Assembly (NCBI RefSeq): GCF_026241195.1
Contig: NZ_JAPFQO010000003.1
Span: 310,001 to 374,000 of the forward strand
Direction: 5' to 3'
Length of the DNA: 64,000 bases
Source: Pontibacter anaerobius
GTDB taxonomy: Bacteria > Bacteroidota > Bacteroidia > Cytophagales > Hymenobacteraceae
The translations under genes and the position numbers were made by a program. Below the pieces are notes generated by a model. It saw only the letters and a program-made list of their open reading frames with translations. It was not told the origin of the DNA and made no database searches. This document shows, one piece after another, positions 2,394-58,312 of the stretch. Position 1 is the first letter of the stretch. The number at the start of each line of letters is the position of its first letter.

Positions 2394-2430
2394 ATCGGTA
2401 GAGGCTGCAAAGCTTGCTACCGATTTTTTT
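2394..2430 (+). terminator. Terminator after obgE
   Basis: An 8-bp stem ATCGGTAG/CTACCGAT (2394-2401 with 2417-2424) followed by a run of eight T. It closes the adk-obgE unit. Confidence 0.85.
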
Positions 2431-2431
2431 T

Positions 2432-2599
2432 AATGAGTGAGCCAGCGATTAAGTGAATGCGTTCCACTCTGTTGCCATCCTGCTAAGGATTCTTGTTGTA
2501 GGGAGGTTAAGCTACAACTACAAAGTATAGCTTAAGTCGATCATCGTTCACCCATTTAGTGAATCACTCATTCAAAATTAAAAAGTGCCAACTTGGCAC
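2432..2599. promoter_or_regulatory. grpE-dnaJ upstream region with palindromes
   Basis: The 304-bp gap before grpE holds a terminator and then this region. AATGAGTGA (2432-2440) is mirrored by TCACTCATT (2564-2572), bracketing about 120 bp. Nearer the gene lies the perfect palindrome GTGCCAA-C-TTGGCAC (2585-2599), with another TTGGC half-site about 10 bp on. The palindrome differs from CIRCE (TTAGCACTC-N9-GAGTGCTAA), so an HrcA site is not supported. A heat-shock operator is inference from position only. Confidence 0.4.
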
Positions 2600-2667
2600 A
2601 AAGAGCGGTTTGGCAAGACAATTGACAAGACAGTATAGACCAATCAACCTAACTTTTTTAAGGCATT

Positions 2668-3243
2668 ATGTCAGATAAAAATATTAAAAAGGAGCAGGAA
2701 CAAGAGGAATTGCAGGAGAACACTGCCAATGCAACCACTGATGAGGAACTGAACCAAGTGGATGAAACAGCGGAAGAAGCCACTGCCGAGACGCAGGAGG
2801 AGAAAACAGCTGCAGAACTGGCAGAAATGAAAGATAAATTCGTGCGCCTGATGGCTGAGTTTGAGAACTTCCGCCGCCGCACGGCAAAAGAACGCCTGGA
2901 GCTGATTAAAACGGCTAACCAGGATACGATGAGTGAGCTTCTGCCGGTGCTGGATGATATGGAGCGTGCACGCCAGTCGATGGAAACCACCAAAGACGTG
3001 GATACCATGCTGCAGGGCTTGGAACTGGTGTTCCATAAGCTGAAGCACGTAACGCTGCAGAAGGGCCTGAAGCCGATGGACACGAAGGCAGGCGATGACT
3101 TCGATAGCGACATGCACGAGGCGATAACGCAGATTCCGGCTCCGTCCGAAGAGCTGAAAGGCAAGATTGTAGATGTAATTGAGAAAGGATACACCCTAAA
3201 CGAGAAGGTGATCCGTTTCGCGAAAGTAGTAATAGGAGCGTAA
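2668..3243 (+). CDS. grpE: Nucleotide exchange factor GrpE
   Basis: DnaK co-chaperone that promotes ADP release. The 191-residue protein has a long acidic, Glu/Gln-rich N-terminus (residues 1-50), a heptad-rich helical stretch around 50-110 that forms the dimer stalk in this family, and the conserved C-terminal beta segment ending VIRFAKVVIG. dnaJ begins 3 bp after the stop, so the two are surely cotranscribed. dnaK is not in the window. Confidence 0.95.
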   Translation: MSDKNIKKEQEQEELQENTANATTDEELNQVDETAEEATAETQEEKTAAELAEMKDKFVRLMAEFENFRRRTAKERLELIKTANQDTMSELLPVLDDMERARQSMETTKDVDTMLQGLELVFHKLKHVTLQKGLKPMDTKAGDDFDSDMHEAITQIPAPSEELKGKIVDVIEKGYTLNEKVIRFAKVVIGA

Positions 3244-9787: not shown

Positions 9788-10085
9788 ACCCACCCCTAAT
9801 CCCTCCGAGGAGGGGAGTTTCACCTCTCCCCAGCCCTCTCCTAAAAACAGGAGAGGGAGTCCGGTTCAAGTGGTATAGCGGTGGCTATCGAAAACTGATT
9901 CCAGTCCTTGGGTTGAGCGCCTTGTGAGATCCGGTGCCCGAAGGGCAGCGCCCTGGCGCAGGAGGGAACACAGTGCGATGCGGGAAGACGAGCCCTCCCG
10001 GCCGTGAGGGAGCCACAGTAAGAGATGAAACAATAGGCAAGTAAGACTGAGGGTAAGCGGAAGCTAGTAAGAATAGCTTGGTTCC
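9788..10085. repeat. Intergenic structured element, copy 1
   Basis: The 483-bp gap between 9708 and 10192 holds no gene. It opens with C/G-rich palindromes (CCCTCTCCT 9834-9842 with AGGAGAGGG 9849-9857). A structured core follows at 9917-10014. Stems: GCGC/GTGC plus TGTG/CACA (9917-9926 with 9969-9976), TGCCC-GAA-GGGCA (9935-9947), and GCGC-CCTG-GCGC (9948-9959). A 3' tail ends in GCTA/TAGC. The same order recurs near 24.9 and 33.4 kb with compensating base changes. There is no open reading frame worth calling. It looks like an RNA or a mobile repeat. Confidence 0.75.
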
Positions 10086-10191
10086 AGTTGCAGGAAGCAG
10101 TGGCTAGTAAAGTATAAGCTAAAGCCAAAACACCATGTATGGCTTACTAAAGCTTAAGTCTGAAGTCTTGCGCCTTATTTTGCCTCACTTA

Positions 10192-24484: not shown

Positions 24485-24571
24485 GCTGATTTAGCAATGC
24501 TGTGATTTTAGTGTAAAGAATAAGTGGCAATGCCATTGCGCAGACAGGTCGCGGCCTATCCCCAAGAAGGT

Positions 24572-24810
24572 GTAAAACTAACCACGCCCCCTCCCGAGAG
24601 GGGAATTATCAAACCACCCCTGCCCCTCCTTATCCAAGGAGGGAAGCCTGTGATGACTGATGTTGAAGTATAAGTTACATCGTTGGAGATGAATGTCATC
24701 AGCAAAAGTATGAACGAACCCACCCCTAGCCCCTCCGAGGAGGGGCTAGGGGTATACCTCTCCCCAGCCCTCTCCTTTTCTCGAGGGCCCCTACCCCCAA
24801 AACAGGAGAG
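24572..24810. repeat. C/G-rich palindromic module upstream of element copy 2
   Basis: The 890-bp gap 24485-25374 has no gene. This first part holds several C/T-rich stretches facing G/A-rich ones. The clearest is the perfect inverted repeat ACCCCTAGCCCCTCC (24722-24736) with GGAGGGGCTAGGGGT (24739-24753). Another is CCTCTCCCC/CAGGAGAGGG flanking a C-rich insert. The same CCCTCCGAGGAGGGG core opens copy 1 at 9801-9815. Confidence 0.65.
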
Positions 24811-25062
24811 GGAGTCCGGTTCAAGTGGTATAGCAATGGCTATCGAGAACTGATTCCAGTCCTTGGGTTGAGCGCCTTGTGAGATTCCGGTGCCCGTAAG
24901 GGCATTGCGACCGAAGGGTAGCAAAGGAAGGGAACACAGCGCGATGCCCGAGGACGAGCCCTCCCGGGCTTGAGGGAGCCAAGGCTAGAAATAGAAAAGG
25001 ATGCTTGTAAGGCTGAGGATCAGCAGCAGCTTGCAAGGATAGCTTGTTTCAAATTATAGGAA
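24811..25062. repeat. Intergenic structured element, copy 2
   Basis: The core runs 24872-24981. The outer stem GCGC..TGTG/CACAGCGC is kept. Stem 1 is TGCCC-GTAA-GGGCA (24891-24904), with a GNRA loop. Stem 2 is completely rewritten, TTGC/GCAA with an inner ACC/GGT (24905-24924), yet at the same place as GCGC/GCGC in the other copies. The upstream 60 bp and the downstream tail also match copy 1. Paired changes of this kind indicate selection for RNA structure. Confidence 0.75.
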
Positions 25063-25087
25063 GCAGCGGCTAGGGAAGTATAAGTAT

Positions 25088-25138
25088 GCGGACTAGGAAG
25101 TCCGCGGCAGAAAGGTTCCGGACAAGGATGTCCGGAAC
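25088..25138. repeat. REP-like hairpin pair following copy 2
   Basis: GCGGACT-AGGA-AGTCCGC (25088-25105) and a 10-bp stem GTTCCGGACA-AGGA-TGTCCGGAAC (25115-25138). The identical pair, in the same order and spacing, follows copy 3 at 33546-33596. A third hairpin, CAAGTC-CGGA-GACTTG, lies at 25223-25238. Confidence 0.8.
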
Positions 25139-25317
25139 AGCGGTAGCGACAAGTATAAAAGTATGGCCAAAGTATAAAGTATGGCTACAGTTGAGTTACA
25201 AACGCAACACCATAAAAGGACACAAGTCCGGAGACTTGCGGCAGAAGGGAAAAACTACGCTTACTTATTTACTAAGAGCCTCGCAGGAGCTTGGCACACG
25301 GCGAGGCCAGAAAAAAC

Positions 25318-33273: not shown

Positions 33274-33345
33274 AGTGGGTTGCTTTTCTATAAAACATGA
33301 TTGTAGCAAGTAATAAAGGGTATTGCGTAACCAAAGGAAAAGCTT

Positions 33346-33527
33346 TCCCAGTTTTTCTGGGAGGCGCCTTGTGAGATCCGGTGCCGCGCGAGCGGCAGCG
33401 CCCTGGCGCAGGAGGGAACACAGCGCCGAGCAGGAAAACGAGGCCTCCCGGCCTGGAGGGAGCCAATGCCAGAAATGAAACGTTAGATATGCAAGGCTGA
33501 GGATGAACCGTGGCTAGTAAGGATAGC
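33346..33527. repeat. Intergenic structured element, copy 3
   Basis: The 596-bp gap 33274-33869 holds no gene. Core 33364-33465. The outer stem is longer here, GGCGC/GCGCC (33363-33367 with 33423-33427), plus TGTG/CACA. Stem 1 is TGCCGC-GCGA-GCGGCA (33382-33397), a GNRA loop and two changed pairs against copies 1 and 2. Stem 2 is GCGC-CCTG-GCGC. A TCCCAG-TTTTT-CTGGGA hairpin replaces the 60-bp lead of the other copies. The tail ends GGCTA/TAGCC. Confidence 0.75.
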
Positions 33528-33545
33528 CAAAGTATAAAGGCTTGC

Positions 33546-58231: not shown

Positions 58232-58259
58232 AGGCCAGCGCAAAACACGCCAGCGCTTG

Positions 58260-58310
58260 TATAAAAGCAGCAAGGCCAGCTAAAGTATAGCTGGCCTTGC
58301 TGCTTTTATA
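58260..58310 (-). terminator. Terminator of the proline dehydrogenase gene
   Basis: Perfect 23-bp arms (58260-58282 and 58288-58310) around a 5-nt loop, rich in A/T at the outer ends, just past the stop on the minus strand. The longest perfect stem in the window. Confidence 0.9.
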
Positions 58311-58312
58311 CT

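Follow-up and report, generated by a model that had tools for sequence, protein, structure and literature searches.

Discussion of bacterial interspersed repeats such as REP, ERIC, and BOX usually treats them as simple hairpins or stem-loops. Among dispersed structured RNAs, the HEARO or omega RNA (RF02033) and the guide RNAs of TnpB are similar in size to the element described here. The nearest analogue in architecture and placement is BOX of Streptococcus pneumoniae: boxA-boxB-boxC elements are described as modular, intergenic, high-copy repeats with predicted RNA stem-loops, overrepresented between convergent genes and cotranscribed in places (PMC3049150). The terms "covar" and "compensatory" are absent from the main text of that paper (PMC3049150). 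A further comparison is offered by the REP, BIME, and REPIN repeats and their RAYT (TnpAREP) enzymes, for which another report describes a Bacteroidetes RAYT subclass with atypical flanking structures (PMC6006769).

Here we describe an element, E, from a window of 64,000 nucleotides, the whole stretch of DNA that was analyzed (positions 310001 to 374000 of contig C3 in the 4.65-Mb Pontibacter genome G000; window positions are C3 contig positions minus 310000). Like BOX, E has ordered, optional modules around a core, is present in high copy, and holds no gene; unlike BOX, it has a pseudoknotted core supported by covariation. As in the REP group, its genome has several RAYTs beside hairpin classes, some of which border E, but E is a structured domain of about 125 to 240 nt and not a short palindrome. 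The best reading is that E represents a new family of nonautonomous interspersed elements, BIME- or BOX-like, with a genuine structured RNA as its core. We hold with roughly even confidence the joint reading that E is a structured-RNA interspersed element serving as an RNA-level 3' trailer and mobilized in trans, with RAYTs as the best candidate movers.

Copies in the window and across the genus

The window holds three plus-strand copies of E that form one direct-repeat family, and a covariance model matches each of them (9900 to 10014, 85.7 bits; 24855 to 24980, 130.9 bits; 33347 to 33464, 100.5 bits), which bears out an earlier note on this DNA that had proposed three copies. The element is longer than the core outlined in that note: E reaches past the core (about 24834 to 25079 in copy 2) and is accompanied by flanking modules. 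The extent of copy 2, 24834 to 25079, was set by an nhmmer search whose profile was built from 39 own-genome copies (model positions 2 to 236), and its structured core at 24855 to 24980 comes from covariance model R1. Copy 1 spans 9878 to 10113 (core, 9900 to 10014) and has mismatched strands in helix P1, described below; copy 3 spans 33336 to 33529 (core, 33347 to 33464), carries the P1 type GTTTTTCTG/CAGGAAAAC, and is shortened in its 3' part. The earlier statement that no open reading frame is present does not hold literally, as the mechanical open reading frame list contains a 122-codon TTG frame on the minus strand (24556 to 24924), in which no signs of a gene were seen.

E is a dispersed element. 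When copy 2 was compared with its own genome by BLAST, the best 40 of 156 candidates were scored and all 40 matched, at 77 to 100% identity. A 15-base pattern from the core, allowing 2 mismatches at most, gave 53 matches, against 7 for the reversed control. The 39-copy profile found 16 full-length copies and 3 short matches (2 of them weak) in 454 kb of C3; the density of about 1 per 28 kb extrapolates to an estimated 160 or so per genome, of which at least 70 were counted. Within the genus, BLAST detected E in 20 of 25 genomes, compared with 0 of 14 genomes of other families, and a search with the covariance model found it in 43 of 50. Copy number in the genus ranges from 0 to at least 70, the latter level being reached in 12 genomes.

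Beyond the genus, an order-wide sample of 291 genomes was searched with 12 candidates per genome and stricter filters, so that absence elsewhere in the order is weak evidence. Matches were obtained in 11 genomes. Six of these belong to the genus itself and 4 to two other genera of its family; the last, from another family, matched weakly (E value, 2.4e-4). Each of the 4 genomes from the two other genera had 11 or 12 matches among the 12 candidates scored. In distant matches the helices persist with other letters, and a long complementary P3 is seen in the one from outside the family. An element-specific pattern was found in at least 92 stretches, and the 80 contigs among the matches listed are all from Pontibacter. 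BLAST with copy 2 gave no match in plasmids and phages, and the single pattern match in viral contigs (L181) was not confirmed by the RNA model at an E value of ≤1e-5.

In Rfam 15, no family matched E at the gathering threshold in the window and 8 further loci. Around copies 2 and 3, matches at an E value of ≤10 included nothing credible and lacked HEARO, the family with which comparison had been suggested. TwoAYGGAY (RF01731) weakly matched the D1/D1b hairpins that follow copies 2 and 3 (26.2 and 24.5 bits), below its gathering score of 43 and outside the E core. Judged by title and the start of the abstract, none of the best-ranked papers in the literature describes E. The lack of an Rfam match at the gathering threshold, together with the covariation reported below, supports the earlier suggestion of an undescribed dispersed structured-RNA family with MITE-like spread.

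Fold and covariation of the core

Comparison of the copies shows a core of about 125 nt with a predicted sense-strand fold consisting of an interrupted helix (P1-P2-P3), the hairpins P4, P5, and P6, and a pseudoknot. In copy 2, on the plus strand, the 5' strand of P1, GTCCTTGGG (24859 to 24867), is modeled to pair with its 3' strand, CCCGAGGAC (24947 to 24955). An internal loop follows, in which TTGA (24868 to 24871) faces GATG (24943 to 24946) in a tandem G·A mismatch, and then P2 (GCGC at 24872 to 24875, with 24939 to 24942) and P3 (TGTG at 24878 to 24881, with 24935 to 24938), the last continued by TTCC (24885 to 24888) with GGAA (24926 to 24929). The hairpins are P4 (TGCCC-GTAA-GGGCA, 24891 to 24904), P5 (TTGC..GCAA, 24905 to 24924), and P6 (AGCCC-TCCC-GGGCT, 24957 to 24970). 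The pseudoknot predicted between the P6 loop (CCC, 24963 to 24965) and a downstream stretch (GGG, 24974 to 24976) is supported by the comparison. The stem 1, stem 2, and outer helix described earlier correspond to P4, P5, and P2, with compensatory changes between copies as stated, whereas the main helix, P1, had been overlooked. The GGAGGG..CCCTCC pairing then offered as a pseudoknot across the outer helix is not the covarying one, which joins the P6 loop to GAGGG just downstream.

Covariation is decisive for E and exceeds what phylogeny and chance produce. In 192 copies aligned by MAFFT without structure and compared with 20 tree-simulated null alignments, 14 column pairs exceeded all null maxima. 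Eight of these fall in P1, P5, P6, or the pseudoknot, columns 72 and 88 of P5 forming the top pair, and for one of the eight, 74-86, no more than 54% of rows are paired. The remaining 6 are offset neighbors, either in P5 or in the stretch 137 to 143, in which the rows lose register. A second tree-based test, with 50 null alignments, ranked the pseudoknot pair first overall even though it is absent from the model; 7 of the 35 modeled pairs reached an E value of ≤0.05, as did 1 nonhelical pair. Both tree-based nulls came from our own scripts and not from R-scape.

Comparisons with shuffles were made on two alignments. In 100 copies fitted to the covariance model, an alignment that leans toward the model, paired cells amounted to 90.9% (79.1% when shuffled) and covariation to 0.307 (0.128 when shuffled); 0 of 500 shuffles were as high, and slid structures reached at most 0.096. 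The MAFFT alignment, which is not fitted to the model, gave 84.5% paired cells compared with 76.2% and covariation of 0.225 compared with 0.114, again with 0 of 500 shuffles as high, and on one of five measures, further pair types, 38 of the 500 shuffles reached the observed value. A parse independent of alignment was readable in 175 of the 192 copies. In these, the middle pair of the pseudoknot is C-G in 121, T-A in 34, G-C in 14, a wobble in 2, and unpaired in 4, and the middle pair of P6 is C-G in 90, G-C in 80, and mismatched in 5.

Helix by helix, all 9 pairs of P1 change on both sides in some row of the model-fitted alignment A2. Of the 192 rows, 170 show the G·A and 172 the A·G juxtaposition of the tandem mismatch. 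P2 cells are 99% paired, with other rows carrying GCTGC/GCAGC or CCGC/GCGG versions. P3 occurs in several wholly different complementary versions, of which the commonest is overrepresented because loci L089 to L168 were found by a P3/P4 pattern, and a few rows mix the arms of two versions. A closing helix, P0 (GCTAT/ATAGC), is complementary and nearly invariant, so that covariation speaks neither for nor against it; an alternative partner on the 3' side is complementary but nearly invariant as well and shows no covariation.

The predicted fold can also be followed in single copies. Relative to shuffled sequence, the fold z score is −4.27 for copy 2, −2.02 for copy 3, and −0.02 for copy 1, whose P1 5' strand is of one type and 3' strand of a different one and which gains no stability over shuffled sequence. 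P1 or P3 arms of different types occur together in a few copies; chimeras of two P1 types were noticed at 9900 to 10014 of the window and at L104 and L122. Across 100 copies and 35 pairs, 77 copies keep at least 85% of the pairs and 2 keep less than 70%, and the fold is kept at 17 to 20% divergence. With RNA parameters, the sense strand gives the better fold in 154 of 158 copies (length excluded 34 of the 192), and the sense minimum-energy fold holds at least 5 of the 9 P1 pairs in 153 of the 158.

E copies are mosaics in which the P1, P5, and P6 types recombine. Between neighboring arms, Cramér's V is 0.00 both for P1 left with P5 left and for P5 right with P1 right, and 0.17 to 0.27 for the other neighbors tested. 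Between pairing partners, it is 0.95 for columns 28 and 116 (88 nt apart), 0.87 for the pseudoknot, 0.76 for P5, 0.66 for P6, and 0.44 for columns 31,32 with 112,113 (80 nt apart). Own arms pair at −32.7 kcal/mol compared with −24.2 kcal/mol for foreign arms. The own arm beats the median foreign arm in 150 of 160 copies (arm length excluded 32 of the 192); with the own genome considered alone, it does so in 43 of 48. Because partners are linked, neighbors are scrambled, and own arms pair best, shared descent alone is insufficient to account for the covariation. We conclude that pairing partners were held together while recombination shuffled the rest of E. The outcome named beforehand as speaking against the proposal, namely, a lack of covariation or variation explained by simple duplication and drift, was examined, and covariation with partner linkage was found in its place.

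Genomic placement and flanking modules

E is intergenic, lies mostly 3' of genes, and points in their sense direction. Strand counts rest on mechanical open reading frame calls, which were given for 145 of the 192 copies, with 128 classified and 17 unclassifiable; 39 of the 128 overlap a called frame. The upstream gene is on the same strand as E in 95 of the 128. Between codirectional genes, 44 copies are sense and 18 antisense, and convergent genes flank 51 copies compared with 15 for divergent genes. Binomial P values for the placement bias are 4e-8 and 0.0013. Among gaps of at least 300 bases in C3, 36 are codirectional, 15 divergent, and 12 convergent. No replication-strand bias was seen among 38 copies of one genome, G021 (21 leading and 17 lagging), whose origin and terminus were set by GC skew in 20 sampled stretches. 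With a gene-strand bias present and a replication bias absent, the orientation of E follows transcription and not replication.

Occupancy of individual sites varies among relatives. Beside one E site lies a gene whose sequence resembles that of malate dehydrogenase; there, 8 of 30 fetched loci have E at the same place and in the same orientation amid reshuffled surroundings, and other loci have it elsewhere or inverted. At the copy 3 site, E is present in 6 of 30 fetched loci, and 4 others that were read lack it. In one relative (G014, L237), an unrelated stretch with an apparent open frame, judged by eye, occupies the copy 3 site where several relatives have E. Likeness averages 0.806 for same-site copies (43 pairs) and 0.799 for different-site copies (42 pairs; P = 0.61), copies within C3 average 0.826, and four genomes at the copy 3 site are closer, at 0.85 to 0.89. 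Since same-site copies are no more alike than others, E has largely been replaced, converted, or reinserted. Among same-site copies of other species, 11 of 12 scored keep the fold, with 83 to 94% of pairs.

In its own genome, E is the center of an ordered composite with palindromes upstream and REP-like hairpins downstream. Upstream of copy 2 lie the palindromic module A (CCCACCCC..GGGG, 24719 to 24752), for which 8 of 12 matches in the 454 kb are just upstream of E, 1 in the opposite orientation, and the palindromic module B (CCTCTCCCC..GGAGAGGG, 24757 to 24812), for which 7 of 9 matches are just upstream of E in the same orientation; at copy 2, module B has a short insert within its loop. 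Downstream, on the plus strand, follow the REP-like hairpins D1 and D1b (GCGGACTAGGAAGTCCGC and TTCCGGACAAGGATGTCCGGAA, 25088 to 25146; 7 of 8 matches at E for D1 and 8 of 9 for D1b), D2 (GTTGAGTTACAAACGCAAC, 25190 to 25208; 10 of 10 matches downstream of E), and D3 (CACAAGTCCGGAGACTTGCGGCAG, 25221 to 25244; 9 of 9 matches downstream of E). Modules A to D are largely confined to E in C3, and homology among the best 40 own-genome matches spans at most about −250 to +440 relative to E. In another genome, G224, the block common to six copies is E alone; when the flanks were read by eye, REP-like hairpins were noticed after one of the six (L290).

Several smaller repeats were observed alongside. 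A mini-insert (GGGGGTAGGGGCCCTCGATAAAGA or its complement; about 24 nt) is present at about 24775 to 24798 of the window, at seven C3 sites, and at L037, L045, L079, and L166. It sits in hairpin loops and helices of other modules, among them the loop of module B and, within E, P3, P5, and P1, the last on either strand. The 8-mer AAGTATAA/TTATACTT occurs 485 times on both strands of the 454 kb, compared with about 11 expected from base composition, with 212 occurrences in 63 kb of intergenic sequence and 273 in 391 kb of called genes. Its density, about one per kb, resembles that of DNA uptake sequences. Long perfect hairpins are also found in C3, for example at 58259 to 58311 of the window, several with AAGTATAAA at the base; they are perhaps bidirectional terminators.

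Candidate movers and rival readings

The own genome has 7 Y1_Tnp matches, 6 of them over the Pfam cutoff, and all 4 RAYTs tested (3 from the own genome and 1 from G021) score above the cutoff of the curated NCBIfam model REP_Tyr_transpos. Of 22 RAYT regions read by eye, at least 10 have flanking hairpins of the kinds that accompany E, and D1/D1b-type hairpins flank the RAYT genes at L312, L320, and L322. The occurrence of the same hairpins both at a RAYT and dispersed, as in REPINs, was found for some of the D modules that border E but not for E itself, which was present in 0 of the 20 RAYT windows searched. This absence and the lack of replication-strand bias set E apart from REP, BIME, and REPIN repeats. 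In G000, several RAYT genes lie by hairpins of different classes (e.g., L184, L185, and L312 to L316), and some of the frames look shortened or interrupted.

Across 50 genomes, the number of E copies correlates with the number of Y1_Tnp matches (Spearman coefficient of 0.68, not corrected for relatedness). No more than 2 E were found in any of the 7 genomes that lack Y1_Tnp, and 38 of the 43 genomes with Y1_Tnp have more than 2. In a 24-genome tree, 5 of the 6 genomes without Y1_Tnp fall in one clade and the sixth elsewhere, and relatedness accounts for much of the correlation. One genome, G284, has 0 Y1_Tnp matches and 11 E matches among 12 candidates scored. A mover acting on lagging-strand single-stranded DNA predicts a replication bias, and none was seen, which argues against a simple RAYT story, as do G284, the E-free RAYT windows, and the block in G224 that consists of E alone.

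Action at the RNA level is strongly indicated for E. In the model that we propose, E would be part of the upstream gene's transcript, as its 3' trailer, and would then fold. The folded RNA would most likely act as a compact end or a protein platform that protects or processes the transcript. Copies would spread in trans, the best candidate movers being the resident RAYT (Y1/HUH) enzymes, which would act on hairpins at the 3' border of E, and later exchange between copies would swap whole modules and helices.

Several rivals bear on parts of this model. If E were an immobile, host-domesticated 3' untranslated-region RNA, each copy being kept to regulate or protect the upstream transcript, then the sense bias, the 3' placement, the fold kept at 17 to 20% divergence and by most of the 100 copies scored, and its retention in 11 of 12 same-site copies of other species would all be in order. 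We consider this reading somewhat unlikely, given that same-site copies are no more alike than others, which speaks for replacement or conversion over quiet inheritance, that copy numbers within one genus span 0 to at least 70, and that some relatives are empty at the copy 3 site. Mobility by another route, in which an enzyme such as a trans-acting reverse transcriptase recognizes the folded RNA in the manner of a bacterial SINE and the REP-like hairpins are later passengers, would suit a fold kept at the RNA level, pseudoknot included, and the common block of E alone in G224. RVT_1, however, is missing in 7 of 10 genomes with high copy number within the genus and in 3 of the 4 E-bearing genomes of other genera, its presence shows no pattern with respect to E, and among 656 clustered frames beside 153 copies no transposase or reverse transcriptase was recognized in the largest 25 clusters, the very largest having frames at 7 loci; we regard such a mover as quite improbable. 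Contig C21 of G000 has two 440-codon reverse transcriptase frames with identical scores (551 to 1171 and 2394 to 3014).

A further alternative concerns the nucleic acid itself: E might fold as single-stranded DNA, as a large hairpin substrate for an HUH enzyme comparable to integron attC. Tandem G·A mismatches are stable in DNA as well, sense still folds better in 152 of 158 copies with DNA parameters, and there is the link to RAYTs, yet E shows an orientation bias relative to genes (44 to 18) and none relative to replication (21 to 17), and we hold this reading to be very unlikely. The earlier note had also suggested an orphan guide-type RNA; to this reading, taken as the omega RNA of an IscB or TnpB system, we give almost no credence. 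Size, dispersion, and pseudoknot recall omega RNAs, but a TnpB/Cas12f-type domain was found in 1 of 21 genomes and is absent from the other 20, including 13 of 14 E carriers, by a search that matched in 6 of 14 control genomes; the TnpB guide-RNA reading finds no support. Several own-genome copies lack a variable guide beside the scaffold, their 5' flank being shared and not copy specific, and HEARO, as stated above, gave no match around copies 2 and 3. A search for IscB (RRXRR) found no match in the own genome but was likewise silent in 14 control genomes and so speaks neither for nor against IscB.

To return to E as a trans-mobilized RNA element, a bolder form of that reading, which we put forward tentatively and think rather unlikely, is that E supplies the RNA partner in a mobile ribonucleoprotein system, as yet undescribed, of bacteria of Cytophagales type: a selfish pseudoknotted RNA whose fold would be read by a trans-acting RAYT relative or another protein, and whose whole-helix variants would be interchangeable identity modules, matched by selection while the rest was shuffled. 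Whatever moves it, E is a repeat found about once per 28 kb that has an elaborate pseudoknotted RNA fold, and this fold is clearly maintained, either copy by copy or through replacement of one copy by another. With copies already recombined, a single genus serves as a natural experiment in which pairing can be told apart from inherited linkage, and the question of RNA-level action by bacterial repeat families thereby becomes directly testable.
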